From Chrysomallon squamiferum (lineage: Eukaryota > Mollusca > Gastropoda > Neomphalida > Peltospiridae): a stretch of 64,000 bases of DNA. Under the pieces are notes generated by a model. The model was not told the DNA's origin, searched no databases, and saw nothing but the letters and a program-made list of their open reading frames with translations. The DNA lies in assembly GCA_012295275.1 (NCBI GenBank), contig CM022678.1:6131059-6195058 (forward strand), in the 5' to 3' direction. Every line of letters begins with the position of its first letter. Position 1 is the stretch's first letter. Shown here piece by piece: positions 6,913 through 53,088 of the stretch. Made by a program: the position numbers and the translations under genes.

Positions 6913-7657
6913 TTATGTTTGAGACAAATGAAAAGCTATAACCATGTCGTCATCATCATTTCCAACTAACAGTGGTTGTTGTTCTGGTAAACTTAACGTC
7001 TCAGCAAGCTTTTCCATATGAAGCCCCACACAATCATGCAGATTGTACAGAAATACAAACTCTTCTTCTGCAGCAGTTTGGTGGTATTTCTGGCAGATTT
7101 CGCAGTCTTGTTCTGCGACTGGACATCGGCCTTCAAGTAAATTGATGACGCACTCATTGAATAGACTTAGCTCTAACTCTCTGACGAAGACGGAACGCTG
7201 ATTTGGAAAACATGATGACCACTGTTTCACTCTGATTGGGTTCTTCTTAGCATCAACAACATCACATTCGTTGTCAAAATTCCACAGCTTTGGTAACAAC
7301 ACACAGTTTTCATTGTCCTTGCTTTCAATACTTTGTAAAGACATTGTGAAATCCTCTTCATTGAATTTTGTGAGATCAATCCCACCACTGAAGCAGCAAT
7401 CCAAAATTATCGTCACCTTTTCAGCTTTCAAGGACAGCAATTGTTTCTTAATTTGTTTTAGAGTAATTATGCTTAAACCACCTCCTAAATGCAATGATGA
7501 CTTATCGGAATGTCCAGAGAAATACAGAAGGAAAAATGGATGTTCTTTTTCACGTATTTGCTGAGGAAGTTCACTGAATGCTTTTACTACTCTTTCACAC
7601 ATAAAGTAATCAATGACTGCTGGTTTTGATGTCGTTATCATTGTAATATTTTCTTCT
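6913..7657 (-). CDS. Copy 1 terminal exon: caspase-like p20/p10 region
   Basis: Enters in phase 2 after tttgtttttag and reads 248 codons to a stop. It shows the family's hydrophobic strand plus His motif (FFLLYFSGHS), strand plus Cys motif (TIILDCCFSGG), and a p10-like segment (KQWSSCFPNQRS, then SLFNECVINLLEG). A later C-x2-C pair (DCEICQKYH) could bind metal. Metacaspases use the second Cys of a D-C/S-C-x-S-G motif as nucleophile; here it is TGC. Confidence 0.75.
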
Positions 7658-8594
7658 CTAAAAACAAAAGGAATAAGTAAACAAAATGTTCATTTTTTTC
7701 TTTCTTTTTTTAAACATGTATTATATAATAAAAAATAAAAATTCGGATTTCACAAAAAATAACTATTTCTGTTACTACAATCATAGCAAAAATTAAATAT
7801 ATAAATAATACATATTTATTTTCATATTAATTTTTTATTAAAAACACAAATGACTAAAGACTAAAAAAATTGGTTACTAAAGACAAAACAAAATAAATGA
7901 AACAATACTTTCACACATACACACACACATATTTAAAATCGATGAGTTAAATTTCAAGTTTATCCCTTTTTGTAATAAATTCATTTAAAAAAGAAAAAGT
8001 GATTAAAGCAAACACATGCACACACACAGCCACACACATTTTACCTGATTCCAACAATATTAGGACTTTGCAGTTTCTCTTTCATTACATTTGTATCATT
8101 AATAAATATTTGATCAAAGTGTTTTATATAATAATAATAATAATTATTATGTCAAATCAAAATAAATAAAATAGTACTTTCACATACACCCACACCCACT
8201 CAAAATAGGTGAGTTAAATTTTAATGTGATCCTTTTTTTGTGGTAAATGCTTTAAAAAAAAAAAAAAAAAGCGATTAAAGCAGCCACACCCATACACACA
8301 CCCACACACATTTTACCTTATTCCAACGATATCAGGATCTTGTAGTGTTTCTTTCATTGTTATGGCATCATTAATAAATATTTTAGCTACGTCTTCTCTA
8401 TGATCATAGCCTGCGATGATAAGGGCAAAACAGTTTTCATGACCTGAGTTCAAATAAAAGAACAAATGTTTAAGTGTACACACTGATCAACTTAACAAAA
8501 CTTAACAAAACACATATTATTTACTTCAATGTGGTGGTTGGTTTTTGAAAAAGAAATTTATTTGGAAGTTGTAATTTTATTTTTTATTAAAATG

Positions 8595-8674
<80 letters not shown>

Positions 8675-8967
8675 ATTTGTAAATAAAACTAAAGAAATGA
8701 TTAACAGAATCAAACGTATAAAAATAAATTTAAAACAATAAAATATTTCCGTATGAACATTTTTTATTATTATTATTATTATTACTATCATCATCATCAT
8801 CATCATCACAGAGTTTAGGGTAATAATGCTACAAGAAATGAAATTAACTGATTACACAATAAGAAATACATAAATTATTAAATGTTATGAAATATATTGA
8901 ATAATAAAAATTAGAGCTTAATCTCGGATTTCTAGGATATGAATAAAACAAACTAAAACACTCTCAA

Positions 8968-9016
<49 letters not shown>

Positions 9017-10724
9017 CACACCTCAACTTACCTACAGGAGAAAAGCACGGCCCATGATCTGTACAACGAAGTTGATTTTCCCATGACTGACGAAAACAGT
9101 CTACACAGAAACTGGGACATGCTTCATCGCAATGTCTTGACAAATGTCTTATTTTTGCTATTTAAGAAATAGATTTTTAAAGCAGATTACAGTTAAATTA
9201 AATTACCATTTAGACTAGCAGTGATTTAAATATATCTTGATAAATATTATTAACAAAACTGACTGACACTTATAAAAATAGAAAACAAAACAGTAATTAA
9301 GAATCACAGTTGTTCCAGTTTTTACGTGGTTTCTTTACATACACCAGAACATTCAAAATCTTGCAAAGAAATATTCTGGTAAATATCAAAAATATTCTTT
9401 TTCTTACCTGCAGGTTGTTTCTTACAGGAAATACAAACTGAAAATAATAAAATCATTTCAAAGAGATAAACAAAAAAGGTAACTGTAAAACAAAATCATT
9501 TGTATGAACTACACAGCAAAAGTGAAAAATTAGGCAACTGTTCTGAAAGGCTACTGATACAGATCGACGTTCAAAGTTCACTAGCAAATATGTTGGAGAC
9601 TTAATTAAATTACTTAAATTATTCAAATATTCATAATATGTATGTCAGAAGCTTAATAATTATTTGGAAACCAATCCTATCTCCAAACACATAGACACAA
9701 GAATAATTACATGCACACATATACTGAAGCATACAAGAATTAAAAAGACATACGCCTTTTCATAATTTAGGAAACTATTTCAAATTAAACCTACGCTCTT
9801 TAGGTTCAGTTTTCTTAATTTGTTCATCCAAATGGTCTTTTGTTTCCTTACTGCCACAGCTCACAATGATTTTTCTTATGGAACACTCTCTCTGACATCT
9901 CTCTATGTTTCTCAGAAGTCTCAAAAGCGCCTCAACAGTGGCAGGGACGTTGCTGTACAATACTTCTACAAATCAGATATAATAATTAAAACCAGTAATC
10001 AGCAAATCAGAAACTTGACTGTAAACTAAGAAGCAGCTTTGTAAAATGTTTAAATCAATTTTCTTACGGCTGTTTTGTTGCTGGAGATATTTCATTGGTA
10101 ATAAGATATAGGAGTAATTATACACACTCTTGAGAAGGAAATACATTTTTATATTACTCTTTTTTGGTTATCCAAAACTGTTCTCTTGTATCAAATAAAC
10201 AAACATTTGGAAATACGCATTTATTATTATTGATTTTTTATTATATTATTTAATTGCAGTTCTGTTCTGGGCATTTCCAAATGTTTGTTTATTTCATAGA
10301 AGAGAACAGTTTTGGATAACCTAAAAAGATTAACATAAAAGTTCACTTCGTTCTTCAGAAACTGCAATTAAAAAATAAAATAAAATAATAGCTATTGGGA
10401 ATGAATTATTTTTCATCAGTGACTGTTATTAATGAATCTTTGATTCTGTATACGTCTATAACTGAATGGTAGTTAGTACTGATGACTGGTAAATTCACTT
10501 ACCATTGTCGCAGAATGGTATAACTACTACAGATGAATCTTTACAAACATGGAACATTTTTTCAATGATTTCTTTCACATTCCGTGCAGTTTTATAGTGC
10601 ACCATTTGCCCAATTCCTTCTAATCCAGAATCTGTCTTCATGACCTGGCCAGATCTAATTTCTTCCTCTTTGAAAGAAAGGGGAAAAAGAAGTTCCCAAA
10701 AATATACATACATACATACATACA

Positions 10725-10760
<36 letters not shown>

Positions 10761-12587
10761 TATATATATGTAACAAAACAAATATAATAATAAAAAAATA
10801 ATAAATTTGCAATAAAGAGTTATATTATGATGCTGAATGTAATTTCGATTAATGTGTTATGTTGTAGTGTTGATAATTATTTGGAATGTTGTTTATCATG
10901 TTGGTTAACTTGTAACAATAATGTTGAAATATTGTAATATTGAAAAAATAATCTAGAATAGTGACTTTAAATGTAATTGTGAAAATAACTTGGATTAATG
11001 GCTTATTCTGTAATGTTGAAAAATAATTTGGAACAGTGACTTATAATGAAAAATAATTTACACTAGCAGCATATATCACAATATAGATAAATAATTAATA
11101 ATAGAGGTTAATTTGTAATTTTAAAATTAAGTTTGTTTATACTGTAACATTGAAAATAATTTGGAATAGGAGTTTTTATGTTGAAAGTAATCTGGAATAG
11201 TAGTTGAAACTGCAATTTTGAAAAAAAAAATTAGCTTAGCAGGTTATACTGTAATACTGAAAAAGTAGAATAACGGCTCAACTTATAGTTTGGAAAATAA
11301 CTTCAAAATAGTGGCTTATTCTTTTTTTTTCAAAATGATTTGAAATAGAGGCATACACTGTAATGTTGATAGAATATTTAGTTATTTTGTGTTTGTTTCA
11401 CAATAACTCAGTTTTAATTTATTTTTGATTGGTTTTCATATTACTGCATACTCAGTTATATGATTTTATAATATCACTTTTTATAATAGATGACATCTGT
11501 TGCCACAACATTTTAAGATCTTTATAATTTGATTTAGTTTTGTTTTTCTTATCTCTATTTTAAAACCAATTACCTGTATATTTAACATATACTACAAACA
11601 TAATATATGTACATGTATGTAATCATAGTACAATTGCTGGCAGTAGGCTATAAGAGGCAATGGGGAAAACTGATTCTGCAGTCCTTGATTGCTCAATCTG
11701 CTACAGTATACCTTAGGTAATTAAAACTATACCAGAAACATTGCATATCGAATAAATATAGAGAATTATATTACATCAGTAGTTGATAAATCTTATGGAC
11801 CGTAATCAGCATAATTAACTTTATTTTCATTTATTATGAGAAAAATAAAATAAGAGAAACTTACTGAATTCTGACCAGTTTTCCAGTTTTACACCAATCC
11901 TCTGCAGAAGTGGGTGGATTGGTCCTTCAAAAGAAAGGAAATAGAATCATAAAAATTCTTATTGTATTACATTTACTGTTAACTTCTTTCTTGCCAGTGG
12001 GATAACACTAATTTTAACAAATTATAGAAAGAAAATATTCGAAACCTCCAACAAAAAGAAAAAAAAAAAGAAAAAGACCTATCAGGACATGTATAAGTTT
12101 CTTGCATTGCTCTATATCCTGACATGGAGAAAAGATGACATGCCAGTCCTGTCTTTATCAGTTAATAATCTCTACATGTTCCTTACCATACCAAGTATAC
12201 CTACGAATAAGACATCCTCTAATAAACCAGTTAAAAAGAAACAACCCAAGACTTAATCTGTGACTGATCTCACATCAGCCAAGTATGTTTTTCACTGAGA
12301 TACAGCCCTTTTTAGTGGCCAGTGTAAGTGATGGACTCTTCAGTATTAAATTGACATTTAGTGAGCAAAGAGGATTGATGTAAGTATGTACTAACCTACA
12401 TTCAACATTTTGTCAGACCATATACAAACAATATCATCTGCTTTTATGTTATGAATGTCGTCTTCAGTTATAATGAGTTCAACTTTATCATCTGCTTTTA
12501 TGTTATGAATGTCGTCTTCAGTTATAATGAGTTCAACGGCTATTATTATTTCTTCGGGTAATTTTGCAGGCTCAGTTCCTTTTGCAT
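6913..12587 (-). CDS. Macro-like / RING-like / caspase-like protein, copy 1 (5' part missing)
   Basis: Eight exons are read on the minus strand: 12396-12587, 11865-11924, 10503-10667, 9795-9965, 9408-9437, 9032-9157, 8317-8443 and 6913-7657. Acceptors and donors are all AG/GT. Junctions are phase 1 except the last (phase 2), and the joined frame is open for about 538 codons to the stop at 6913. The first four exons form a divergent macro-like (ADP-ribose-binding) domain, the next two a Cys/His RING-like cluster, the last two a caspase/metacaspase-like domain with YFSGH and DCCFSGG, so the presumed catalytic His and Cys (codon 7393-7395) are both present. Unlike copy 3, no A20-finger exon is found upstream, and the linker exon at 13135-13319 is out of frame. 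The start codon is therefore unknown; the gene may be 5'-truncated or use a new first exon. Either a functional short paralogue or a recent pseudogene. Confidence 0.65.
8045..8116 (-). pseudogene. Partial duplicate of the caspase N-terminal exon (copy 1)
   Basis: Minus strand reads IFINDTNVMKEKLQSPNIVGI followed by AG|gtaaaatg, the same 3' half and donor as the true exon at 8317-8443. The 5' half (CFALIIAG) and a usable acceptor are missing, and TTA/TAA repeat replaces them. It looks like a leftover of exon duplication. Copy 2 has the same fragment at 25565-25636; copy 3 does not. Confidence 0.6.
8597..8670. repeat. (TC)n microsatellite, intronic
   Basis: Uninterrupted CT dinucleotides over about 74 bases in an intron of copy 1. 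The orthologous site in copy 2 carries the same repeat at 26131-26197. Confidence 0.95.
8971..9021. repeat. (AC)n microsatellite, intronic
   Basis: CA dinucleotides abut the donor side of the RING-like exon of copy 1. Copy 3 has AC runs at the same place (about 45395-45450). Confidence 0.9.
9032..9437 (-). CDS. Copy 1 RING-like Cys/His exons
   Basis: Two exons, 9408-9437 (30 bp, CISC) and 9032-9157 (126 bp). Joined, they give CISC, then HLSRHCDEACPSFCVDC and a downstream C-x2-H-x2-C. The CPSFCVDC spacing resembles the third and fourth ligand pairs of a RING (FCxxC preceded by a ligand). It is not a textbook RING, so RING-like or another zinc-binding fold are both possible. Both exons are phase 1 at each end. 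Confidence 0.6.
10166..10321. repeat. Foldback element, ~49-bp inverted arms (copy 1)
   Basis: The arm starting ggttatccaaaactgttctc is answered by an inverted arm ending gagaacagttttggataacc across a loop of about 60 bases. Arms differ at a few positions. It lies between the macro-like exons of copy 1. The same foldback in copy 2 (27203-27357) has perfect 48-base arms; it is absent from copy 3. Confidence 0.8.
10830..11380. repeat. Intronic diverged ~40-bp tandem repeat (copy 1)
   Basis: Repeated phrase of the type ACTGTAATRTTGAAAAATAA, then TTTGGAATAGTGGCTTAT, with a period near 38-45 bases and many substitutions. The same array sits in the same intron of copies 2 and 3. Confidence 0.7.
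12396..12587 (-). CDS. Copy 1 first macro-like exon with in-frame 54-bp duplication
   Basis: Encodes the predicted first strands of the macro-like domain. The segment VELIITEDDIHNIKADDK appears once complete and then again as VELIITEDDIHNIKADDI; the DNA repeat is exact over 54 bases on inspection. Copy 2 (29497-29640) has a single unit, and copy 3 (49496-49648) has one diverged unit. Phase 1 at both ends. Confidence 0.7.
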
Positions 12588-24414: not shown

Positions 24415-25159
24415 TTATGTTTGAGACAAATAAAAAGCCATAACCATGTCTTCATCATCATTTCCAACTAAAAGCGGTTGTTGTTGTGGAAGATTAAATG
24501 TCTCAGCAAGCTTTTCCATATGAGGCTCCACACACTCATGCAGATTGTTCAGAAATACAAATTGTTGTTCTGCAGCAGTTAGATGGTATTTCTGGCAGAT
24601 TTCGCAGTCTTTAGCTGCGACTGGACATCGGCCTTCAAGTAACTCTATGATGCAGCTAGTGAATAGACTTAAGTTTAACTCTCTGATGAAGCAGGAACGC
24701 TGATTTGGAAAAGATGATGACCACTGTTTCACTCTGATTGGGTTCTTCTTAGCATCAACAACATCACGTTCCTTGTAAAAATTCCACAGCTTTGGTAACA
24801 ACACACAGTTTTCATTGTCCTTGCTTTCAATACTTTGTAAAGACTTTGTGAAATCCTCTTCATTGAATTTTGTGAGATCAATCCCACCACTGAAGCTGCA
24901 ATCCAAAATTATCATCACCGTTTCAGCGTCCAAGGACTGCAATTGTTTCTCAATTTGTTTTGGAGTCATTCTGCTTAAAAGACCTCCTAAACACAATGAT
25001 GACTGATCGTAATGTCCAGAGAAATACAGAAGGAAAAATGGATGTTCTTTTTCACGTATTTGCTGAGCAAGTTCACTGAATGCTTTTACTACTCTTTCAC
25101 ACATAAAGTAATCAATGACTGCTGGTTGTGATGTTTTTATCATTGTAATATTTTCTTCT
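24415..25159 (-). CDS. Copy 2 terminal caspase-like exon with Ser at the nucleophile position
   Basis: A full-length open 745-bp exon, like copy 1. It encodes FFLLYFSGHYDQ and MIILDCSFSGG. The p10-like part (KQWSSSFPNQRS) and the C-terminal C-x2-C are intact. Only the Cys normally used for catalysis is changed. Confidence 0.7.
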
Positions 25160-26128
25160 CTAAAAACAAAAGGAATAAGTAAACAAAATGTTCATTTTTT
25201 TCTTTCTTTTTTTAAACATGTATTATATAATAAAAAATAAAAATTCGGATTTCACAAAAAATAACTATTTCTATTACTACAATCATAGCAAAAATTAAAT
25301 ATATAAATAATACATATTTATTTTCATATTAATTTTTTTATTAAAAACACAAATGACTAAAGACTAAAAAAATGGTTACTAAAGACAAAACAAAATAAAT
25401 AAAACAATACTTTCACACATACACACACCCACAGACATATTTAAAGGCTTCAAAATAGATGAGTTAACTTTGAAATTTATCCCTTTTTGTAATAAATTCA
25501 TTTAAAAGAAAAGAAAAAGTGATTAAAGCAAACACACACACACACACGTACACATACATTTTACCTGATTGCAACGATATTAAGATCTTGCAGTTTCTCT
25601 TTCATTACATTTGTATCAATAATAAATATTTGATCAGAGTGTTTTATATTATAATAATAATAATAATAATGTCAAATCAAAATAAATAAAATAATACTTT
25701 CACACACACACGCACTCAAAATAGGTGAGTTAAATTTTAATGTGATCCTTTTTTGTGGTAAATTCTTTTAAAAACAAAAAGGAGAAACGATTAAAGCAGC
25801 CACACCCATACACACACCCACACACATTTTACCTTATTCCAACGATATCAGGATCTTGTAGTGTCTCTTTCATTGTTATGGCATCATTAATATATATTTC
25901 AGCTACTTCTTTTCTACTATTATAGCCTGCGATGATAAGGGCAAAACAGTTTTCATGACCTGAGTTCAAATAAAAGAACAAATGTTTAAGTGTACACACG
26001 GATCAACTTAACAAAACATATTGGACATAACACACAGAAGTAAACACATATTATTTAGTTCAATGTGGTGTTTGGTTTTTGAAAAAGAAATTTATTTTGA
26101 AGTTTTATTATTATTTTTTTATTAAAAT

Positions 26129-26202
<74 letters not shown>

Positions 26203-26282
26203 GTAAATAAAACTAAAGAAATGATTAACAGAATCAAACGTATAAAAATAAATTTAAAACAATAAAATATTTCCATATGAAC

Positions 26283-26324
<42 letters not shown>

Positions 26325-27758
26325 CATCATCACAGAGTTTAGGGTAATAATGCTACAAGAAATGAAATTAACTAATTGTATAATAAGAAATACATAAATT
26401 ATTAGATGTTATGAAATATATTGAATAATAAAAATTACAGCTTCTTACAGGAAATACAAACTGAAAATAATAAAATCATTTCTAAGAGATAAAGAAAAAA
26501 GTAATTCTAAAAGAAAATCATTTGTATGAACTACACAGTAAAAGTGTAAATTTAGGCAGCTGTTTTGAAAGGCTCTTTATACAGATAGACATTCAAAGTT
26601 CACTAGCAAATATCTTGCAGACTTAATTAAATTACTTAAATTATTCAAATATTCATAAAATGTATGTCAGAAGCTTAATAATTATTTAAAAACCAATCCT
26701 ATGTCCAAACACATAGACACAAGAATACTTACATGCACACATATACTGAAGCATACAAGAATTAAAATGACATACGCCTTTTCATAATTTAGAAAACTAT
26801 TTCAAATTAAACCTACGCTCTTTAGATTCAGTTCTCTTAATTTTAATGCGTGATATTTGTTCATCCAAATGGTCTTTTGTTAGCTTACTGCCACAGCTCA
26901 CAATGATTTTTCTTATGGAACACTCTCTCTGACATCTCTCTATGTTTCTCACGAGTCTCAAAAGAGCCTGAACAGTGGCTTTTGTGTTGCTGTACAATGC
27001 TTCTACAAATCAGACATTATAATTAAAACCAGTAATCAGCAAATCAGAAACTAGACTTTAAACTAACAAGCAGCTTTGTAAAATGTCAAAATCAATTTTC
27101 TTATGGCTGTTTTGTTGCTGGAGATATTTCATTGGTAATAAGATATAGGAGTAATTATACACACTCTTGAGAAGGAAATACATTTTTATATTAATCTTTT
27201 TTGGTTATCCAAAACTGTTCTCTTGTATCAAATAAACAAACATTTGGAAACACACATTTATTATTATTGATTTTTATTCTATTTTTTAATTCTAGTTCTA
27301 TTCTGGGCTTTTCCAAATGTTTGTTTATTTGATACAAGAGAACAGTTTTGGATAACCTAAAAAGATTAACATAAAAGTTCACTTCCTTCTGCAGAAACTG
27401 CAATTAAAAAATAAAATAAAATAAAAAGAATGAATTATTTTTCATCAGTGACTGTTATTAAAGAATCTTTAATTCTGGATACCTCTGTAACTGAATGGCA
27501 CAGTTAGTACTGATGACTGGTAAGTTCACTTACCAGAGTAGCAGAATGGTATAACTACTACAGATGAATCTTTACAAACATGGAACATTTTTTCAATGAT
27601 TTCTTTCACATTCCATGCAGTTTTATAGTGCACCATTTGCCCAATTCCTTCTAATCCAGAAAATGTCTTGATGATCTGGCCAGATCTAATTTCTTCCTCT
27701 TTCAAAGAAAGGGGAAAACGAAACCGAAAAACATTCATATATATATATATATATATAT

Positions 27759-27813
<55 letters not shown>

Positions 27814-29640
27814 CATACACATACATACATACATATATATATAAAAAACAAAGAAATAAAAGTAATAATAAAAATAAATAATAATAAAAAAACATTTGCA
27901 ATAAAGATGCTGAATGTAATATCTATTAATGTGTTATGTTGTAATGTTGAAAATTATTTGGAAAGTTGTTTATACTATCATGTTGGTTAACTTGTAATAG
28001 TAACTTATATTGTAATATTGAAAAAATAATTTAGAATAGTCTCTTTAAATGTAATTTTGAAAATAACTTGGAATTCTGTAATACTGAAAAATAATTTGGA
28101 ACAGTGACTTATAATGAAAAATAATTTACACTAGCAGCATATACCACAATATAGATAAATAATTTAAAATAGAGGCTTAATTTGTAATTTTGAAATTAAC
28201 TTGTTTATACTGAAACATTGAAAATAGTATGGAATAGGAGTTTACATTACAATGTTGAAAATAATTTTCGAATAGAGGCTTATTTTTTAATTCTGAAAAT
28301 AATTAGCAAAAGTGGATTAAACTATTGTTCAAAGTTATCTGGAATAGTAGTGGAAATTGCAATTTTTAAAATTTATAATTTAGAAAATAACTTCAAAATA
28401 GTGGCTTATTCTGTATTTTTCAAAATGACTTGAAACAGAGGCATACACTGTAATGTTGATAGAATGTTTAGTTACTTTGACAGTGATGTCCATTTCTCTT
28501 TGTGTTTGTTTCACAATAACTCAGTTTTAATTTATTTTTGATTGATTTTCATATTACTGCCTGCTCAGTTATAAGATTTTATGACACTTTTTACTAATAG
28601 ATGACATTTTAATATCTTTATAATTTGATTTCGTTTGGATTTTCTGGTCTTTTTTTAAAAACTAATTTCCTGTATCAAATACTTAACATACTACAAACAT
28701 AATATATGTACATGTATGTAATCAGAGTACAATTGCTGGTAGTAGGCTATAAGAGGCAATGGGGAAAACTGATTCTACAGTCCTTGATTGCTCAATCTGC
28801 TACAGTATACCTTAGGTAATTCAAACTATATCAGAAACATTGCATCTGGAATAAATAAAGAGAATTATATTACATCAGTAGTTGATAAATCGTATGGACC
28901 ATAATCAGCATAATTAACTTTATTTTCATTTATTATGAGAAAAATAAAATAAGAGAAACTTACTGAATTCTGACCAGTTTTCCAGTTTTACACGACTGCC
29001 CCGCAGAAGTGGGTGGATTGGTCCTTCAAAAGAAAGGAAATAGAATTAAAAAAAAAGTTCTCATTATATCACATTTACTGTTAATTTCTTTCTTGCAAAT
29101 GGGATAACACTAATTTTAACAAATTAGAGAAAGAAAATATACGAAATCTGCAGCAAAAAGAAAAAGAAGAAAGAAAGACCTATCAGGACATGTATAAGTT
29201 TTTTGCATTGCTCTATATCCTGACATGGAGAAAAGATGACATGCCAGTCCTGTCTTTATCAGTTAATAATCTCTACATGTTCCTTACCATACCAAGTATA
29301 CCTACGAATAAGACATCCTCTAATAAACCAGTTAAAAAGAAACAACCCAAGACTTAATCTGTGACTGATCTCACATCAGCCAAGTATGTTTTTCACTGAG
29401 ATACAGCCCTTTTTAGTGGCCAGTGTAAGTGATGGACTCTTCAGTATTAAATTGACATTTAGTGAGCAAAGAGGATTGATGTAAGTATGTACTAACCTAC
29501 ATTCAACATTTTGTTAGACCATATACAAACAATATCATCTGCTTTTATGTTATGAATGTCGTCTTCAGTTATTATGAGTTCAACTTTTACGGCTATTATT
29601 ATTTCTTCGTGTAATCTTGCAGGCTCAGTTCCTTTTGCAT
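24415..29640 (-). CDS. Macro-like / caspase-like protein, copy 2 (catalytic Cys to Ser, RING-like exon lost)
   Basis: Exons on the minus strand: 29497-29640, 28964-29023, 27534-27698, 26817-27002, 25833-25959 and 24415-25159. The 126-bp RING-like exon found in copies 1 and 3 is absent, and the small CISC exon is cut off after AAGAAG (26460 down to about 26440) without its donor. Because the flanking exons are phase 1, direct splicing of 26817-27002 to 25833-25959 keeps the frame. In the last exon the motif reads DCSFSGG: the codon at 24895-24897 is AGC where copies 1 and 3 have TGC. The His motif YFSGHY is kept. The rest of the frame is open to the stop. As in copy 1, no A20 exon is upstream. 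Likely a non-proteolytic paralogue or an early pseudogene. Confidence 0.6.
25565..25636 (-). pseudogene. Partial duplicate of the caspase N-terminal exon (copy 2)
   Basis: Same fragment as at 8045-8116, with IFIIDTNVMKEKLQ and a gtaaaatg donor but no acceptor-side half. Confidence 0.55.
26131..26197. repeat. (TC)n microsatellite, intronic (copy 2)
   Basis: CT dinucleotides at the place equivalent to 8597-8670 in copy 1. Confidence 0.95.
27203..27357. repeat. Foldback element with perfect 48-base arms (copy 2)
   Basis: Left arm begins ggttatccaaaactgttctc and the right arm is its exact reverse complement over about 48 bases; the loop is about 55-60 bases. Equivalent to 10166-10321 in copy 1, absent from copy 3. 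MITE-like, no coding capacity. Confidence 0.85.
27737..27812. repeat. (TA)n/(GATA)n microsatellite
   Basis: TA repeat followed by about 13 GATA tetranucleotides, just upstream (5' on the minus strand) of the copy 2 exon 27534-27698. At the same place copy 1 has a TACA repeat (10706-10752). Confidence 0.95.
27905..28470. repeat. Intronic diverged ~40-bp tandem repeat (copy 2)
   Basis: Same TGTAATRTTGAAAATAATTT-type array as in copies 1 and 3, in the same intron. Confidence 0.7.
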
Positions 29641-31264: not shown

Positions 31265-31300
<36 letters not shown>

Positions 31301-32250: not shown

Positions 32251-32419
32251 AAACGTTGAAGAGTTTTCTCCATTTCTCTTTATCATTTAAAACTGCTGAA
32301 ATTATAGTCAACTTTCATCCCTAGAGTCTTTTTAATTTTACTTAAGTTTTTTTAAATTATTATTGTTATTATTATTATATAATATATTCTGATTAAATAA
32401 GGTAATGATTACACACACA

Positions 32420-36126: not shown

Positions 36127-36173
<47 letters not shown>

Positions 36174-36850
36174 TTTTTTGTTATACTAGGAAGGTAAGAG
36201 AAAAAAATTAAAATTAAAAATCATTAGAAATAAACATATCAAGTAAAAAATATTTTAGCACAAATAAAATATCCATAATTATGCATTTATAACCACTATT
36301 TAAAAATAATTAAAAAAAATTTCTAATTTTAATACCAAATCCATAACTTGAAGCAGTATTTCTATAAAATATTATGTTTCACAGTATTAATAATACTTTA
36401 AACTGAAAGTATTTGTTTTGAAAAAATGTGTTCTGTTTAAATGATAATACATGCTTGCAGTTCCATTATGTAAAAACAATGGATATAGTTACAGTTTATA
36501 TTTAACTTAATGATATGAAACAACACTGTTGTAACAAATGCCAAAAATTTTATATCAAAACATTTTTTTGTTTAAATTAAACCAGTTGGAAGAATGTATC
36601 TGTAAAGGCACTTCAGTGTATTTTTATATTCTACATAATAGTGTTAAATAAAATAGTATTACAACAAATATTTTGTATAATTTGTTTGTTTTTTTTTTTT
36701 TTTTTTTTTTTTTTAAATATTCCAACATTAAAAATTAAAGAAATTAAAAAATAATATTTGTTTAACAATATATGAATACATTATTGAATTAAATTAACAA
36801 ATGATTCCAAAAGTAAGAAAAGAAAATGAAAATAGTAAATTTATTTTTCT
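32420..36850. repeat. Block B array, third location
   Basis: The tagtctgc landmark lies at 33768 and 35837 (spacing 2069), with a partial unit starting abruptly at about 32425 after an AC run. A TTA/TTTA microsatellite (36118-36175) and a poly-T run (36688-36714) lie in the last unit. No coding features. Confidence 0.8.
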
Positions 36851-36959
36851 TTTCTTTTCTTACTTTTTTAATTTTTCACATTATACTAGGTATTTAAGAG
36901 CAAATCCAATTAAAGCATATCTTTCGTGATACAAAAGAAAAAAAACTAAATAAAATTTG

Positions 36960-43395: not shown

Positions 43396-44139
43396 TTATT
43401 TTGTTTGAGACAAATAGAAAGCAACAGCCATATCTTCATCGTCATTCCCTTCTAACTGTGGCTGTTGTTCTTTGTTGTACTTATGAACAAGCTTCTCCAC
43501 ATGAGGCACCACACACTCGTGCAGATTGTTTAGAAATACAAACTCTTCTTCTGTAGCTGTTAGGTGGAAGGTCTGGCAGTATTCACACTGGTCGTTTTTC
43601 ACTGGACACTGGCCTTTAAGCAAATTTGTGATGCAGAGAGTGAATAGACTGTTTTTAACTCCCTGTGGAAGAAGGAACGCTGCTCTGTAACAGACGATGT
43701 CCACTGTTTCACAGTGGTTCTGTCCTTCTTAGCACCAAGACCATCGCACTCGTCCTCCAGATTCCACAGCTTTGGTAACAACACATAGTTTTCATTGTCC
43801 TTGCTTTCAATACTTTGTAAAGACTTTGTGAAATCCTCATCGCTGAATGTTGTCAGATCAACCCCACCACTGTAGCAGCAATCCAGAATTATCATCACCT
43901 TTTCAGCATTCAAGGACTGTAATTCTTTCTTAAGTTGTTTTGGAGTCATTCTGTTGAAACGATCTCCGAAATGCAATGATATATGATTATTATGCCCAGT
44001 GAAATACAGAAGGAAAAATGGATGTTCTTTTTTATGTATTTGCTGATGAAATTCTCTGAATGCTTCAATTACTTTTTTATCCATAGAGTGATCACTAAGC
44101 GCTGGTTTTGATGTAGTTATCAATTTAATATTTTCTTTT
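43396..44139 (-). CDS. Copy 3 terminal caspase-like exon with frameshift
   Basis: Begins after tttgtttttag. It keeps FFLLYFTGHNN and MIILDCCYSGG and the p10-like QWTSSVTEQRS, then leaves the family frame at about FFHREL and stops at 43599. In the next frame the family sequence continues (NSLFTLCITNLLKG, CEYCQTFHLTATEEEFVF) to the homologous C-terminus AFYLSQTK. Aligning gaatagactg-tttttaac with copy 2 gaatagacttaagtttaac shows one base missing. Either a true mutation or an assembly error. Confidence 0.7.
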
Positions 44140-47100
44140 CTAAAAACAAATAAAGTAAGTAAACAAAAAGATAATTTTAATTTAAACATAAATAAAATAA
44201 CTAATTCTGTTCCTACCATCACACCAAAAACTGAATATTTAAATAATACATTTTCATTTTTATATTAATTTTCATTAAAAACACAAATAACTGTGTAAAA
44301 GATATGATACAAAACAAAATAAATTCAAAGCAATAAATTATCACTTGACACTTACTGCATATTCAGCAACATTTTTCATAATCATTTTAAACAGTGATAG
44401 ATGATTTGTAACAATTCCTGCTCAATACATATTTACTATCAACAAACAGGAGACAGAAAACATTTAAAAGCATGGCACTAAATAAAGGAATTAAACAAAA
44501 GCCCAGTGGCAATAAATGCACAGAAATAAAGAATATCTTACTGATTTGTTTAGGACTTTTTGCATAAGTTTAAAAAGTATTAATTACAGCAAAAGTGTGA
44601 AACACTACTACTACTACTACTAATAATAATAAAGACATAGAAAGATAATAATTAAAAAATTTTAATAATAAAGACAAAACAAAACAAATAAAACAATACT
44701 TTCACAAACACATGGACACACATAAAGGTTTCAAAATAAGGGAGTTAAATTTGAATCTGATCCCTTTTTGTGATAAATGCATTTACAAAAAAAAAAAAAA
44801 AAAAAATGTATAAATACTTAAGCACCCACACCCACACATTTTACCTTATTCCAATTATATTAGGATCTTGCAGTGTCTCTTTCATTAAATTTGCATCATT
44901 AATGAATATTTCAGCTGATGCTTTGTCAGAATCATGGCCTGCGATGATAAGGGCAAAACAGTTTTCATGACCTGAGTTCAAATAAAACAACAAATGTTTA
45001 AGTGTACACACTGGTCAACTTAACAAAACAAAAAGTCATTAAACATACCACGCACCAGCAAACACATATTATTTACTTCAATGTGATGATTGTTTTTTAT
45101 TTTTATTTGTTTTTTTATTTGGAAGTGGTAATTTAAATTTTTGATGAAACTGTTCTCTGTTTTGTGTGTGTGTGTGTTTTGTGAATAAAACAAAAAAAAA
45201 AAATTAACAGAATCAAGCATGCAAAATAAGTTTAATCCAATAAAATCTTTCTTTATGAACATATTATTATTATTATTATTATTACCATAATCACAACCTT
45301 TGGTGTAATCATGCTACAAGAAATGAAATTAACTGATTACACAATAAGAAATATATAAATAATTAAATTTATGGAAACATATGAAAAGAAAAATTACACA
45401 CACACACACACACACACACACTATGAATGTAACACACACACACACACACAGAAATGTACCCATAACATAAACCAATACAACTCAACTTACCTACAGGAGA
45501 GAAGCACCGCCCATGAACTGAACAATTAAGTGGATTTTTCCATGACTGGCACAAACAGTCAACGCAGAAACTGGGACATGCTTCATCACAATGTCTTGAC
45601 AAATGTCTTATTTTTGCTATTTAAGAAATAGATTTTTAAAGCAGATTACAGTTAAATTAAATTACCATTTAGACTAGCAGAGATTTAAATATATCTAGTC
45701 AAGTATTATTAGCAAAAATTGGTTGACAGTTATAAACAAAACAATAATTAAGAATCACACAAATCTATTAATTTAAGACGATTTGTTTCTGTTTTTTAAG
45801 TGTTTTCTTTACATGTACCAGAAGATTCAAAATCTTGCAAAGAAATATTCTTGTAAATACCAGAAATATTCTTTTTCTTACCTGCAAATCGTTTCTTACA
45901 GGAAATACACACTGAAAATAATGAAATCATTTGTAATAGATGAAATACTTCTTTAATTGCAAAGCAACTGAACAGCAAAAGTATCTTCAGAGGTGAAAAA
46001 TTAGGCAGATGCTTTTGGAAAGGCTATTTAATTTAAAGGATTAGCAAAAACAGACACATACACTTTTATAAACATGAATATATATACAGTGGTGGGATTC
46101 AAAAATTTTTAAAACAGGTTCTTTTGGTAATAGTAAGTCAGCTTTGATCTGTAGGCTACTAGATGCTACATGCTACCAGGTGAAATTATTATTAATAATT
46201 TATTTTTGCCAAATAAAAAACACAGTGGTTGAAATATTATTTGACAACACTGATGAGATTGTACACGGTTAATAATCACTTAATATAAAGCAAGGAGTGA
46301 CTTATGTAAGCAAATCAACACCAAGCTAGCTCTATTAACAACTGGTTTCATTGAACTCATGAAATTCCAAGAATGGGTTTTACAAAACATTGCAAACTAG
46401 CTTAATCCTATCACTGTACATACATACAAACAGACATTCAAAGTCCACTAGCAAATATGGTCTTGTACAATTAATTTATTCATGTTATTCAAATATTAAT
46501 AATCTTTGTTAGAAGAAACCAGTCCTATCCACACACATACACACACACACACACACACATACAGATACACACATGCTGAAGCAGACATAGTAGAATTAAA
46601 AGGAAAAAAATTAAAAAAATTCTAGTTTAGAAAACTATTTGAAATTAAACCTACGTTGTTTCTGTGTTTCAGTGTGAGAATGACAGGATATAAGTTCATC
46701 CAAATGGTCTTTTGTTTCCTTACTGCCACAGCTCACAATGATTTTTCTTATGGAACACTCTCTCTGACATCTCTCTATGTTTCTCACAAGTCTCAAAAGT
46801 GCCTGAACAGTGGCTTTTGCGTTGCTGGACAGTACTTCTACAAATCAGACATAATAATTAAAACCAGTAATCAGCAAATCAGAGACTTTAAAATAACAAG
46901 CAGCTTTGTAAAAAAAAAAAAATGTAACAATTTTCTTGTGGTTGTTTTGTTGTGAGAGACATTTCATTGCTAATAATAAAGTATAGCAGTAATTTTATAC
47001 TCAAAAGAAGACTGCCATTTTTCTTTCTGTTATGTGTACTTCTGATATGTTTTGTCTGAAGATAAATTTATTCACACTTGCTTGTTACCTAATTAAGTAA

Positions 47101-50100
47101 ATTACTGGCAAAGTTAAAATTTTGCTTACTGTAGTGAAATGTAAAACTATTAGGGATGAATTATTTTTCATAAGTGATAATTATTAAAGAATCTTTAATT
47201 GTATATACCACTATGACTGAATGGTGCAATTAGTACTGAATTCACTTACCGTAGTGGCAGAACGGTACAACTACTACAGATGAATCTTTACAACCATGGA
47301 CAATTTTTTCAATACTTTTTGTCAGATTCCATGCAGTTTTATTGTTGCAAACACTGTGCAACATTTCCCCAATTCCTTGTAATCCAGAATCTGTGCTCAT
47401 GACCCGGCCAGATTGAACTATTTTCTCTTTTAAAGAAAGGAAAAAAAAAAAAAAAAATAAAAAATAAATAAATAAAATAATAATATTGAAAAATAATTTG
47501 GGAAATGAGTTACACTGTATTGTTGAAAGGTAATTTGCAATAACAGGTTATGTTATAGTACTGAATATAAATTGGATTAATGTGTTATACTGTAATGTTG
47601 AAAATAATTTAGAAAGTTGTTCATATTAAGTTGGTTAACTTTGTAATAGTAACTTACACTGTAATACTGAAAAATAATCTGGAATAATGAATTAAAATAT
47701 AACACTGAAAAATAATTTGGAACAGTGACTTAAGCTGTAATATTGAAAAATAGCAGCATGTAGCACAATATAGATAAATAACTTAAAACAGAGGCTTAAT
47801 TTGTAATTTTGAAATTAACTTGGAATAGTGGCTTATACTGTAACTTTGATAGAATATTTAGTTACTTTGGAAAGTTGTTTATACCATGTTGGTTAACTTG
47901 TAATAGTAACATATTCTGGAATACTGAAAATAATTTAGAATAGTGACATTAAATGTAATTTTGAAAATAACTTGGACTAATGACTTATTTTGTAATACTG
48001 AAACAAATCTGGAATAATGGGTTATAACATAACACTGAAAAATATTTTGGAACAGTTACTTGTACTGTAATATTGAAAAATAATTTACATTAGCAGCATG
48101 TACCACAATATAGATAAATAATTTAAAATAGAGCCTTAATTTGTAATTTTGAAATTAACGTGAAAAAGTGGCTTATACTATAACTTTGATAGAATATTTA
48201 GTTACTTTGACAGTGATGTCCATTTCCCTTTGCATTTGTTTCATAATATCTGTTTTAATTTATTTTTGATTGATTTTCATATTACTGCATAATCAATCAG
48301 GTGACTTTATAATAACACTTTGTATAATAGTTGCCACAAAATTTTAATGTAGTTTTCTTTTCTTTCATTATTTTTTTTTTTTTACTAATTACCAGTATCA
48401 AACATTTAACAGACTACAGATATAATATATTATAAATGTATGTCATCATAGTGCACTTGCTGGCAGTAGACTATAAGATGCAATGAGGAAAACTGTTTCT
48501 ACAGTCCTTGCTTACTGAATCTGCTATAGTCTAGTTTAGGTAATTCAAACTATATCAGAAACAATTACAAGAAAAATAAAAATAAAAATAAAAGAAACTT
48601 ACTGAATTCTGACCAGTTTTTCAGTTCTTTGCCAGTGCTTTGGAGAAGTGGGTGGACTGGCCCTTCAACAGAATAGAAATACAATCATAAAAATTCTTAT
48701 TGTATTACATTTACTGTTAATTTCTTTCTTGCAAGTGGGATAACACAGATTTTAACAAATTAGAGTAAGAAAATGTACGAAATCCACAAGAAGAAGAAAA
48801 AGAAGAAAGAAAGACCTAACAGGACATGTATAAATTTCTTGCATTGCTCTATATCCTGACATGGAGAAAAGATGACATGCTGCTGCCAGTCCTGTCTTTA
48901 TAAATTAATAACCTCTACATGTACCTTACCATGCCAAGTATGAATATACCATAATAAACCAGCTAAAAGGGAAACAGCCCAAGACTTAAACGATGATTCA
49001 TCACACATCAGCACAGAATGTTTTTCACTGAGATACAGCTCTCTTCAGTGGCCAGAGCAAGTGATGGAATTTTCAATATTTAACATTTAGTTTGCAAACA
49101 ATATAAGATGTAACAGGGCTTGAAATGGCCAGTTGCCAAATTGCCAGAATGTTAAAAATATTATGGGTTAGTCACTGAAAAATATGATTTGAACAACCTT
49201 TTTTTTTTTTTAATAAAATTATAACACAAGGGCCATTATTAATAATTATATCGAAAATATTTATTTCACATAAAAGGTTTTGCTTGCATTTTATTAAACT
49301 TCAAAAATTTAATGATCAAGTACATATTTCCTTTCACTTAAATGCTGAAATATGAATGTTTTTTTGCTTGGGCTATCAAAAACAAATTTGGGCCACTGAA
49401 TTTGTTTCAAAATGAATATTTAGTGGCCCACGTTTGTTTTTTGGGTCACCGTACATTTCAGATGAGTTTTGAGCCCTGTATAAGTATGTACTAACCCATA
49501 TCCAACATTTCCTGAGACCACATACAAACAATATAATCGGCTTTTATAACATGAATGGAGTCTTGAGTTATAGCCAGTTCCACTTTTTCTGATAATATTT
49601 CTTCGGATGATCTTGAAGGCTTATTTGTAATCACCTCAGTTGCATTATCTGAAATCATAGAAATATTATAAACTAACTTGAGGTATTGTCATTTGCTGAT
49701 GATACTGCCTCAGCAAAAGAAATCATAGAAATATTATACCATTAACATTTGGGGCAACTGTGTCTACATGTGTGTGTCAGAACAATAAAAATAGTACTTA
49801 ACCATAAGATAACAGATGACCTGTAATTATGTTTGCTAATTTTTAAGAAGATACTGTTACAGATTTTCTATCAGTATTAATATAATTATGGCCATCACTT
49901 TGGCCATGTTTTGATAGGACTGTTCTTTGTATTTCTGAGTATAAAAATAACCAGTTTGTGATATCAAAAGGATCTTTTAATATGAATGATGAATTTGAAG
50001 TCATTAATGTGTGCAAAACCTGTTACGAATTAAACATAAATCATGATGTAGAGGAATACTAATTGAAAAAAAATGTATGTCAAAAACATTTAGTGTTTAA

Positions 50101-53088
50101 TGGCTTATACATGTATCCTTCAAATTTATGAAAAACATTTTTTTTTTCCTGAAACCTACCTGGTGCTGAAAGATTATTTTTATTTGAATCTGCAGTATGC
50201 TCTTCAGCAGGACCAGCAGAAAATAGTTCATCTGAAGAAATGCTATTGAAATTCTCAGGATTTATTCTATTAATAAAACTGGCGTTCTTTCGAAATGGTA
50301 CAGATGATCTGGTTCTGTAATTAGCTTGAAACATGTTGTTATTTGCTGATGATGTCAACTTTTCAGCAGAATTTAAAACGTCCTGATGTAATGGAACTGA
50401 ATCATCAACTGGGGTAAAAGAAATCATAGAATATTATATTATATTTAAACTAATATTTGGGGCAACTGTGCATACAGTGGATGTGTCATAACTATCTCAA
50501 TAAAAATAGTAGTTATATATATAAAAAAAAAAAATTCCTGAAACCTACCTGGTGCTGAAAGATTATTTTGATTTGAATCTGCAGTCTGCTCTTCAGCAGG
50601 ACCAGGAGAAAATAGCTCATCTGAACGAATGTCATTCAAATTCTCAGGAAATGGAATAGACGATCCAGTTCTGTAATTAACTGGAGACATATTGTTATTT
50701 GTTGAACAGACCCTCTGTTCAAATGGTTTTAAATCTGTCTGCTGTAATGGAACTGAATCATCAACTGCGGTAAAAGAAATCATAGAGTATTATAGACTAA
50801 TATTTGGGGAAACTGTGCATACAGTGGATGTGTCATAACTATCTCAATAAAAGTAGTACTTAACAGTGAGATAACAGATGCATACTGTAATTATTTTTCT
50901 GAAGTTCTAATGCTAAAGATGATACTGTTACTGATTTTCTATCGGTATTATTATAATTTTGGCCATCACTTTTGCCATGTTGTTTGTATTTGAGGTTATA
51001 ACAATAACAATTCACAACAGCAAAAGTTTCTTTTAATATGAATGATGAATTTGAAGTCATTAAAGGGTGCCAAACATCTGATAAAATTTAAACAAATCAT
51101 ATGATTATGATGTAGAGGAATGCTATACAAAAAATATTTATGTCAAAAGTATTTAGTGTTTAAAGGCTTATACATGTATCCTTTAAAATGAACGAATTTT
51201 TTTTTTTTTCTGAAACCTACCTGGTGCTGAAAGATTATTTTGATTTGAATCTGCAGTCTGCTCTTCAGCAGGACCAGGAGAAAATAGCTCATCTGAACGA
51301 ATGTCATTCAAATTATTAGGAAATTGATTAGACGATCCAGTTCTGTAATTAACTGGAGACATATTGTTATTTGTTGATGAGACCCTCTGTTCAAATGGTT
51401 TTAAATCTGTCTGCTGTAATGGAACTGAATCATCAACTGGGATCAAGGTCATTTGCCTCTCATATGAAACATTTCCTGGCTTCAGAGTTGTATTCTCAGG
51501 TTTTGCCTCGTTTGTGACTGAAATGGAATCACCTCGCTGGCTTGCATTAGTGTCCCATGTTAACTGTGTCAGTGAATTTTCATTTTTGTCTGGTTGGTAT
51601 GGTACAACAGATATGTTACTGAACTTTTTAAAACACTCTGAACAGTAAGGTGCTGTTTGAACTGTACTGAAGTTACCACAGTCTCTTTTACAAAGTGAAT
51701 TTAACAACATCTTATGTTTTTTACTAGCATTTACAAGTGTGTTGGTGTTGAAATTATTGGATTCAGAGGTTACGCGACTAGGGGACCAATTGTTGTCATA
51801 ACTCTCTCCAGTGGTAGAACTAGTCAATTCAGAAGATCCTGTTTCAAATAAATATTTTTGAAAACAAACACTACACATGTTCAGCTGATCTGGGTCACCA
51901 TAAAAATTACAGCCATGTGTTTTACATACCTTCTGCCTACCAGCTACTGTTAAATCTGAAAAATGATTTGGCAAAGATTGGTATTTTGCCAGCTTTTCTT
52001 TGTCGTAGCATTTACTGCATTTATTACCAAACTTAGGACTGCCAAAATAGGCACAGCCTTGGACAATGCACTGATTAGAAGAAGCAGACTCATGTATTTC
52101 AGTTTTGTTTATACATTCAAAAAGCGTGAAGCAACCAGCACATCTTCCACCCAGAGATTCTATGCCCTTCTTCGTGCATTCCTTTTCTGAACATTTTCTG
52201 TAATTTATCTCAGAAACACTTCTTTTAATTATCTGGTTGGGTTCTGTCAGACCACTGACATTTGAAGATACTCCAAGAGTATTATTCCAAGCATTATTTT
52301 CTAGCTCAATTTCAGTGTGATTTTCTAGTTCACCGGTTTCATCTCTGTTTTTACATGAACACCAACAACCATTAAAAATATATTCTGGAACAGATGATGA
52401 AAATCCTTGACATTTTTTGCAAAACTGGAATAGATTAGCACACTGGTTACACAGATCTGCATTTTGTTTGGAGCCATAATTTCGACACATTTTGTTTTTA
52501 CATTTACCGATTTTATAGTTTTCCGTTTCTGATTTATTACACCTTTCACAAACACACTTGTAAGCATTTATCAAACAACATGGTATGTCTTTAGTAAATC
52601 CAAAGCAAATACTGCAAAATCCATATTTTTCATTACACTGTGAACAGAAAGGGTAATTTTTGTCATTAGTAACGTTCTGACACTCAGGATTCTTGCAGAT
52701 GTTCCGAGATGGAGCATTGTTTGTGGTTTCATGTTGACTGTCACAGCAACAGAGAGGACATGAATGTAAACTGCCTGGAAGAGGTCTTGCTACTTTTTTA
52801 CATTTTGTGCAAAATCGAAAACGTTCTGAACATTCATTACATAGACCACCTGTTTTATCATTTCCAAAATGAGAACAATTTCTGTTCAAACATTGCATAC
52901 TCTGTTTCTTAAAGCAGCTGTTGCACAAGTTTTGATTTTTTGGGTTGCCATAATTCGGACATCCAGAAGAACTACAGCGACTAGGATTTTGCATATCAGA
53001 AGAAAAATTAATTCAACCATTACAGTTAAATAGTCTTTTTGAGAATTCCTTGGGATAGGTTCACCATTGGGGCTTTTCAGATTAATAT
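43396..53088 (-). CDS. A20 zinc-finger array / macro-like / RING-like / caspase-like protein, copy 3 (frameshift near the end)
   Basis: Exons on the minus strand: 51221-53088 (ATG at 52992-52994), 50549-50764, 50160-50408, 49496-49648, 48603-48662, 47250-47426, 46655-46837, 45882-45911, 45491-45616, 44845-44971 and 43396-44139. All have AG/GT ends, and all junctions are phase 1 except the last (phase 2). The protein order is: eight A20-type fingers (residues about 7-454), a Ser/Asn-rich region, three copies of a linker module, a macro-like domain, a RING-like cluster, then a caspase-like domain with YFTGH and DCCYSGG. A 1-bp deletion near 43647-43655 versus copies 1 and 2 shifts the frame. 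As read, the protein is about 1211 residues, stopping at 43599; the conserved frame resumes downstream to 43396. Domain families suggest ubiquitin binding, ADP-ribose binding and proteolysis; the combined role is not known to me. Confidence 0.7.
44845..44971 (-). CDS. Copy 3 caspase-like N-terminal exon
   Basis: 127 bp, phase 1 in and phase 2 out. It encodes ENCFALIIAGHD and INDANLMKETLQDPNIIGI, the first strand and helix of a caspase-type fold. Copies 1 (8317-8443) and 2 (25833-25959) have exons of identical length. Confidence 0.7.
45491..45911 (-). CDS. Copy 3 RING-like Cys/His exons
   Basis: Exons 45882-45911 and 45491-45616. They encode CISCKK, HLSRHCDEACPSFCVDC and then NCSVHGRC. The Cys/His positions match copy 1, which argues that they are under constraint. 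Confidence 0.6.
46087..46416. mobile_element. MITE with hAT-like ends (copy 3 intron)
   Basis: Begins tacagtggtgggatt and ends aatcctatcactgta, an imperfect terminal inverted repeat. It is non-coding and absent from the matching introns of copies 1 and 2. The CAGTGGTGGGATTC end resembles hAT non-autonomous elements. Confidence 0.6.
46655..49648 (-). CDS. Copy 3 macro-like domain exons
   Basis: Four exons: 49496-49648, 48603-48662, 47250-47426 and 46655-46837. Order of features: KVELAITQDSIHVIKADYIV (strand, D-I, D-x-IV); GPVHPLLQ in place of the usual Gly-rich loop; GRVMSTDSG (macro G-x-V-x-T-x-G-like); a helix; SSVVVVPFCHYG (hydrophobic strand with Gly loop); a helix ATVQALLRLVRNI; and IRKIIVSC. 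This matches the strand/helix pattern of macro domains, but the canonical GGG-V and N-A-A-N motifs are absent, so ADP-ribose binding is uncertain. Confidence 0.55.
47475..48200. repeat. Intronic diverged tandem repeat with ~275-bp internal duplication (copy 3)
   Basis: Same 40-bp-scale units as in copies 1 and 2. In addition, the stretch from aaagttgttcata to atagaatatttagttacttt (about 47608-47873) is followed by a similar second copy ending near 48210. Confidence 0.7.
49114..49478. mobile_element. MITE with cagggctt / gagccctg ends (copy 3)
   Basis: 365 bp with imperfect inverted ends (cagggcttgaaa and ttttgagccctg). It sits 17 bases beyond the splice donor of the exon 49496-49648. Copies 1 and 2 have an empty site (gatgtaagtatgtactaacc). 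hAT-like judging by the ends; no clear target duplication found. Confidence 0.65.
50160..50764 (-). CDS. Copy 3 duplicated linker exons
   Basis: Exons 50549-50764 (72 codons) and 50160-50408 (83 codons), both phase 1-1. Both encode the module that also ends the A20 exon: VDDSVPL, then NYRTGSS, then DELFSPGPAEEQTADSNQNN or a close variant, then LSAP before a gtaggt donor. Low-complexity, Ser/Asn/Glu-rich and probably unstructured. Fossil copies persist upstream of the macro-like exons in copies 1 and 2. Confidence 0.7.
51221..53088 (-). CDS. Copy 3 first coding exon: eight A20-type zinc fingers
   Basis: Coding from ATG 52992-52994; an in-frame TGA lies 21 bases upstream. Eight C-x3/4-C-x11-C-x2-C fingers start at residues 7, 35, 100, 165, 268, 309, 357 and 435 (finger 8 has x3). 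Several carry the A20 GNP/GxP-type loop (PNYGNPKNQNLC, AYFGSPKFGNKC, NFYGDPDQLNMC). After fingers 2, 3 and 4, extra Cys clusters (FCxxC...CxCxxC types) may bind more metal. Family members such as TNFAIP3 and ZFAND proteins bind ubiquitin through such fingers. The exon ends in one linker module before gtaggt. Upstream acceptor tttttattccag is at 53089. Confidence 0.8.
52995..53088 (-). promoter_or_regulatory. 5' UTR segment with upstream ATGs
   Basis: Between the acceptor and the main start lie two upstream ATGs. One opens a short 13-codon frame. The other (53018-53020), with G at -3 and +4, opens a frame overlapping the main start and ending at 52886. If transcribed as inferred, this would reduce translation of the main frame. 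The 5'-most exon and promoter were not identified. Confidence 0.4.

Follow-up and report, generated by a model that had tools for sequence, protein, structure and literature searches.

An eleven-exon, tandemly duplicated gene predicted to join an A20 finger array to a caspase-like protease

Results

The gene model and its A20 finger array

The window analyzed here is a stretch of 64,000 nucleotides of contig CM022678.1 (GenBank assembly GCA_012295275.1, positions 6,131,059 to 6,195,058 of the forward strand), and the gene in question lies on its minus strand, from about 53.0 to 43.6 kb. It is the third copy (copy 3) of a tandem trio and its most elaborate member; the other two copies (copies 1 and 2) had gone unremarked in a preliminary description of this DNA. 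The model has 11 exons (Table 1), which on joining give a single open frame of 1211 amino acids. All 10 introns have GT-AG ends, and the phases agree at the junctions (phase 1 at nine of them, phase 2 at the last), in agreement with the exon structure that had been described before. The coding part of exon 1 comprises 591 codons (1774 bases), from the ATG at 52992-52994 to the donor CAG/GTAGGT at 51221, and, given how often stop codons occur in the window, a run of 592 codons would stay open by chance with a probability of about 2e-19. For exons 4-11, copy 1 has the same splice sites and phases, and copy 2 shares them at six of these eight exons. The window is AT-rich (25 of its 32 blocks of 2 kb each are below 30% G+C), and this composition, taken together with the introns and with a retroelement having reverse-transcriptase and integrase similarity, fits an animal. 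The intron-rich multi-exon gene is read as real and eukaryotic, and it is probably an animal gene.

Exon 1 encodes eight C-x(2-4)-C-x11-C-x2-C motifs, when 1000 shuffles of the exon 1 protein contain 0.08 on average and never more than 2. It matches the zf-A20 family (PF01754) with an expect value (E) of 2.2e-18 and 66.2 bits, above the curated cutoff of 21.6, and six stretches match at E<=10. The motif count and the family match bear out the eight A20-type fingers of the preliminary description. When exon 1 is searched against solved structures, every match up to E=0.05 is an A20-finger protein: finger 7 aligns with structures of ZNF216/ZFAND5 (E=7.6e-4 and 0.0052), fingers 1 and 2 with chains of TNFAIP3 (E=0.013 to 0.049), which we take to be ZnF4 and ZnF7, and finger 6 with structures of Rabex-5 (E=0.038 and 0.043), ZNF216 being the only match below E=0.001. 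Three Cys-rich segments beginning FCxxC are found between fingers 2 and 5. A20-type fingers bind ubiquitin, and ubiquitin sensing by this array, which had been proposed earlier, is plausible when considering these alignments of single fingers with the structures of ZNF216, Rabex-5 and human A20. No A20 fingers were found elsewhere in the window, the pattern of the A20 exon has no match in viral contigs, and no OTU domain, the deubiquitinase domain at the N-terminus of A20/TNFAIP3, is seen on the minus strand between 53 and 64 kb with three regular expressions and reading of the open reading frames by eye.

The best sequence evidence that connects the A20 exon to the exons downstream is a repeated linker unit. 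Exon 2 repeats the 72 codons that close exon 1 with 94% identity over 72 amino acids, exon 3 is 59% identical to linker unit 1 over 83 aligned columns, and the linker units of exons 1, 2 and 3 all end in the same phase 1 donor. Because linker unit, donor and phase are shared, the A20 exon is assigned to the gene of the exons that follow it, and, as a gene model, the union of the A20 array with the caspase-like domain has good support. Both paralogs also have related linker units, interrupted by stops, ahead of their exon 4. Within the linker units (50160-51437), PLQQT occurs in two of three units and PAEE in all three. These motifs, which presumably resemble TRAF-binding motifs, are short and possibly there by chance.

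The caspase-like protease

The protease segments match Peptidase_C14 (PF00656, cutoff 21.4 bits) with E=1.9e-5 (24.9 bits) in copy 3 and E=2.7e-5 (24.4 bits) in copy 1, and the segment of copy 2 lies just under the cutoff, with 21.1 bits. Among the NCBIfam models, NF047832 (caspase_w_EACC1) is the best in all three copies (E=2.5e-10, 3.1e-8 and 6.7e-11 for copies 1, 2 and 3), with scores of 40.2, 33.3 and 42.1 bits, respectively, which are far below its curated cutoff of 140. Judged by these profile scores, the protease is related to the EACC1-associated caspases and is not a member of NF047832. The PADLOC search gives one weak caspase match, on copy 1 (E=0.0048). EACC1-caspase pairs are treated as bacterial conflict systems in two reports (PMC7159879; PMC8195603).

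The catalytic His of copy 3 is in the motif YFTGH (codon 43992-43994), and the presumed catalytic Cys, chosen by its D-x-C pattern, is the second Cys of LDCCYSGG (codon 43875-43877). Copies 1 and 3 have both residues; in copy 2, a Ser occupies the position of the Cys. The D-x-C motif fits the label "metacaspase-style" that had been given to this domain, but the best profile is that of a bacterial EACC1-associated caspase. In PMC5756287, the C14 members other than caspases, as characterized so far, have a strict preference for Arg and/or Lys, and metacaspases are described as absent in animals. Following that source, the D-x-C motif suggests specificity for Arg/Lys, such that cleavage after these residues is predicted for the protease described here.

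The C-termini of the paralog proteases (6913-7150 and 24415-24670) align weakly with the zinc-finger region of ZAP/PARP13 (E=0.22-0.5), with which they share a Cys/Cys/Cys/His pattern.

The middle region and the Cys/His cluster

Exons 4-7 encode 191 amino acids, the region described before as macro-like. Inspected by eye, its segments follow an order resembling that of a macro domain, and copies 1 and 2 read DDIHNIKADDIV opposite GDITKLAVDVIV of YmdB. Nevertheless, a macro-domain assignment is not adopted, as none of the tools used gives a significant match and the local comparisons are not above decoys or shuffles. Pfam reports no match to the macro domain (PF01661) in any of the three copies, the lone match being tRNA-Thr_ED (E=0.16) in one of them. 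The profile search of the PDB with this region returns no macro domain and two unrelated chains (E 0.49 and 2.2), NCBIfam gives for the region of copy 3 chance-like matches alone (BREX_PglZ_4, 0.031; rnpA, 0.08), and PADLOC has no match on the region. A macro profile built from 81 sequences (80 of 81 loci together with YmdB, all bacterial or from viral contigs) scores 1.0, 1.5 and 1.8 bits with HMMER on copies 3, 1 and 2, values that are reached by 14 of 227, 4 of 214 and 8 of 222 scored shuffles, respectively (300 made each). With hhalign, the alignment to a 7-sequence YmdB profile fell on an unrelated stretch; the macro profile aligned the expected first strand and loop 1, with a local score of 16.7 that is within the range of 60 column-shuffled decoys (mean 14.0, maximum 24.4).

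Global alignment to the profile, which is of the MacroD type only, gives -5.9, -22.1 and -5.6 for copies 3, 1 and 2. Copies 3 and 2 are above all 46 control windows, which were taken from 32 E. coli coding sequences (maximum -12.2), and copy 1 is below that maximum. When compared with 40 shuffles each, the z values are 2.8, 0.9 and 2.3, and some shuffles of copies 1 and 2 outscored the real sequences. It is possible that exons 4-7 have a macro fold, with weak support from the global alignment; the macro-like domain as such, missing from Pfam in all three copies and from the PDB matches, and with local profile scores at decoy level, is not upheld. In a hand alignment, which is uncertain, NAAN is replaced by CMWS or CIWS, and the loop-1 Asn/Gly and the Gly-rich loop 2 are apparently missing. 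PMC10221186 gives loop-1 Asn/Ser plus Gly and a loop-2 hydrophobic-aromatic pair as criteria for an ADP-ribosylhydrolase, and describes immunity proteins of hosts as having repeatedly lost their macro activity. By these criteria, and given the loop residues that the hand alignment lacks, the region would be no ADP-ribosylhydrolase even as a macro fold. The earlier suggestion of ADP-ribose sensing is unsupported, the macro fold being unproven and the residues of the binding loops apparently missing.

Exons 8 and 9 encode a Cys/His cluster, conserved in copy 1, with the spacing C-x2-C-x14-C-x3-C-x3-C-x2-C-x10-C-x2-H, which differs from what we take to be the standard spacing of RING C3HC4. The cluster that had been called RING-like is thus found as a conserved Cys/His cluster, but a RING family match is seen in neither of the two sequences scanned. 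What persists of the four-part, single-gene architecture put forward before is the A20 array joined, in the gene model, to the caspase-like domain, whereas the macro and RING parts are unconfirmed.

The tandem copies and their surroundings

The coordinates of the exons, the fingers and the other two copies are listed in Table 1. No A20 exon is found with copies 1 and 2 within the window. A 501-base deletion has removed exon 9 and part of exon 8 from copy 2, and skipping both exons preserves the frame. In copy 1, exon 4 contains a perfect 54-base tandem duplication (12432-12537) that keeps the frame. A second, partial exon 10 with a conserved donor is present in copy 1 (8044-8112, at a 272-base tandem duplication) and in copy 2 (25564-25644), and these partial duplicates could provide alternative N-termini of the protease. 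The intron between exons 5 and 6 of copy 3 contains short diverged repeats (47560-48160), and similar sequence is found in copies 1 and 2.

A retroelement (13440-17577; in copy 2, 30509-32364) lies immediately 5' of copy 1, at the position expected for an A20 exon, with matches to RVT_1 (E=1e-4) and rve (E=1.1e-6), both below cutoff. Copy 2 has the same retroelement without the stretch 14078-16577. Since the element is common to both copies, its insertion is probably older than the duplication that separated copies 1 and 2. Between the gene copies there are repeat blocks (2134-6800, 18565-23190 and 32417-36900) with a period of about 1.46 kb, and the repeat pair 18565-21748 and 20031-23190 is 96.5% identical.

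Table 1. Positions of the features of copy 3 and of the other two tandem copies (window coordinates)
Feature	Position	Strand	Remark
AG acceptor-like site	before 53088	-	boundary in the preliminary description; 5' untranslated region if used
Exon 1, coding part	51221..52994	-	eight A20 fingers; last 72 codons are linker unit 1
A20 fingers, exon 1 (first four)	52914-52976, 52830-52892, 52635-52697, 52440-52502	-	motif
A20 fingers, exon 1 (last four)	52131-52193, 52008-52070, 51864-51926, 51633-51692	-	motif
Exon 2	50549..50764	-	linker unit 2
Exon 3	50160..50408	-	linker unit 3
Exon 4	49496..49648	-	first exon of the macro-like region; macro fold unconfirmed
Exon 5	48603..48662	-	macro-like region
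Exon 6	47250..47426	-	macro-like region
Exon 7	46655..46837	-	macro-like region
Exon 8	45882..45911	-	CxxC opening the Cys/His cluster
Exon 9	45491..45616	-	remainder of the Cys/His cluster; missing in copy 2
Exon 10	44845..44971	-	C14 protease, first part
Exon 11	43599..44139	-	C14 protease with His and presumed catalytic Cys; in-frame stop 43599-43601
Protease C-terminal part	43396..43650	-	shifted frame in copy 3, which is one base short near 43650 compared with copies 1 and 2
Tandem copy 1	6913..12587	-	equivalents of exons 4-11; open frame of 538 amino acids; LDCCFSGG
Tandem copy 2	24415..29640	-	equivalents of exons 4-7, 10 and 11; open frame of 475 amino acids; LDCSFSGG

Divergence between the copies

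Indels in multiples of three account for five of six exon indels between copies 3 and 1, five of six between copies 3 and 2, and three of three between copies 1 and 2, the 501-base deletion being counted among the last. Outside the exons, the corresponding numbers are 10 of 37 (in 120-base flanks), 9 of 30 and 7 of 31. Pooling the comparison of copies 3 and 1 with the whole-locus comparison of copies 1 and 2 gives multiples of three in 8 of 9 indels within exons and in 17 of 68 outside (p=0.0004), which is read as a sign of coding constraint. The exons are less diverged than the flanks in the comparison of copies 3 and 1 (0.183 versus 0.274, p=5e-10) and in that of copies 3 and 2 (0.196 versus 0.286). 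Copies 1 and 2 are separated by 103 differences in their exons, and neither joined frame contains a stop, when 100 random substitutions are expected to generate about 3.9 stops (probability of none, 0.02).

Discussion

The gene is read here as a fusion of an A20 array, three repeated linkers, a diverged region of uncertain fold, a Cys/His cluster and a C14 protease, which would function as an immune protease recruited by ubiquitin. The finger array, the gene model and the C14 assignment are what the sequence shows, and ubiquitin binding, activation, cleavage specificity and a part in immunity are inferred from it. This reading is tentative, and we consider its chance of being right to be somewhat short of even. 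The mechanism proposed as the likeliest is that the A20 fingers bind ubiquitin chains, that this binding brings protease units together, and that the proximity activates the protease, which would then cut itself or its partners after Arg/Lys, the D-x-C motif being as in metacaspases and paracaspases, unlike caspases. The copies without fingers would act as free effectors or as decoys, and one of them has a Ser at the catalytic position. To our knowledge, ubiquitin readers (A20) and C14 proteases (MALT1) are separate proteins in the well-known animals. If the proposal is true, ubiquitin signals would be coupled to proteolysis in a single step, and there would be a link between the bacterial and the animal machineries of death and immunity; the tandem copies with and without fingers form a natural test of what the fingers contribute.

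The wider version of this proposal, in which the reading of ubiquitin and the firing of proteolysis are combined in one polypeptide by an A20 array and an EACC1-like caspase, with tandem variants of sensor and catalytic site, in the service of animal immunity, is given a small chance. No A20-caspase fusion is described in the titles or abstract openings among the literature matches listed, and the novelty of the architecture is judged from these literature searches.

Several results weigh against the fusion protease. A Peptidase_C14 match is not reported for the full-length copy 3 of 1211 amino acids, no solved caspase is matched in the PDB at E<=1, and the AlphaFold model of exon 11 from the three copies is unusable (mean predicted local distance difference test score, 34.8). 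In a protein collection that is seemingly poor in animals, neither copy 1, with 8000 candidates scored, nor copy 3, with 5813, has a relative at E<=0.001; as known A20-finger proteins also failed to surface, this is not counted as evidence of novelty. The ratios of nonsynonymous to synonymous substitution rates (dN/dS) are near neutral or diversifying: 0.91 for the macro-like region, 0.56 for the Cys/His cluster and 0.89 for the protease between copies 3 and 1, 0.93 and 0.98 between copies 3 and 2, and 1.18 and 1.41 between copies 1 and 2. For exon 11, the comparisons with copy 3 cover its first 492 bases. The count of exon indels for copies 1 and 2 includes the 501-base deletion, and a second count, made exon by exon, gives 2 of 2 versus 4 of 8. 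The divergence of these two copies is not different inside and outside the exons (0.072 versus 0.082, p=0.27).

Two further unfavorable points are the Ser at the catalytic position of copy 2 and a frameshift in copy 3. The preliminary description had the gene end at 43396, but the frame of the catalytic motifs in copy 3 stops at 43599-43601, and the frame that is open to 43396 is another one. Next to five consecutive As near 43650, copy 3 is one base short of both paralogs, which read through, and as sequenced it is without the last part of the protease because of this one-base deletion. The shifted-frame stretch is identical to copies 1 and 2 in 51 of 84 and 56 of 84 columns, respectively, when copies 1 and 2 are identical to each other in 65 of the same 84. 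An AATAAA is present at 43354, downstream of the shifted frame; a scan of 151 bases in copies 1 and 2 finds none. The one-base difference is possibly an assembly error, a polymorphism or recent decay.

The frameshift and the divergence data are also what a decaying cluster would show, one in which a fusion that once worked has become a frameshift pseudogene in copy 3, with copies 1 and 2 drifting unconstrained. The dN/dS range of 0.56-1.41, the equal divergence of exons and introns between copies 1 and 2, the Ser at the catalytic position and the deleted exon 9 of copy 2, and the stops within the linker exons of both paralogs are in agreement with such decay. However, no stop interrupts the eight-exon frame of copy 1 or the six-exon frame of copy 2, the exon indels are mostly in multiples of three, the exons are less diverged than the flanks relative to copy 3, and the frame past the shift in copy 3 is still open and still similar to the paralogs. 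We regard general decay as doubtful; the family is read as fast-evolving, and some of its copies may be decaying.

It is also conceivable, and in our view unlikely, that the protein serves as a scaffold or regulator that binds ubiquitin and has an inactive caspase-like part, as in the caspase relatives of the cFLIP type. Such a function would suit the lack of the C-terminal part of the protease in copy 3, the Ser in copy 2, and the A20 array being the best-preserved recognizable part; on the other hand, copy 1 retains the His, the Cys and the C-terminal part, and copy 3 retains both residues of the dyad. A pair of adjacent genes, one a single-exon A20-array gene and the other a macro-like/caspase gene resembling copies 1 and 2, is quite improbable, for although copies 1 and 2 are without an A20 exon within the window and the frame of the A20 exon stops about 12 codons past the donor, making a self-contained protein possible, this exon shares linker unit, donor and phase with exons 2 and 3, and exon 2 begins 456 bases after the end of exon 1.

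Comparison with known systems

The fusion gene can be compared with four kinds of known proteins. The likeness to macro domains (PF01661) is in the order of segments by eye, and the difference is in the loop-1 Asn/Gly and the Gly-rich loop 2, which are apparently missing here. The EACC1-associated caspases (NF047832) provide the best NCBIfam model in all three copies, yet with 33-42 bits versus a cutoff of 140, and they are bacterial, whereas the gene described here has a eukaryotic exon structure. With the metacaspases, orthocaspases and paracaspases (MALT1), the protease shares the C14 family and the D-x-C at the presumed catalytic Cys. The residues around this Cys are DCCY in copy 3 and DCCF in copy 1, as compared with DxCH in metacaspases and DxCR in type II paracaspases according to PMC5756287. 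A20/TNFAIP3 is similar in having multiple A20 fingers, of which there are eight here. Human A20 has seven fingers; the protein predicted here differs in its additional Cys-rich segments, located between fingers 2 and 5, and in its C-terminal C14 protease.

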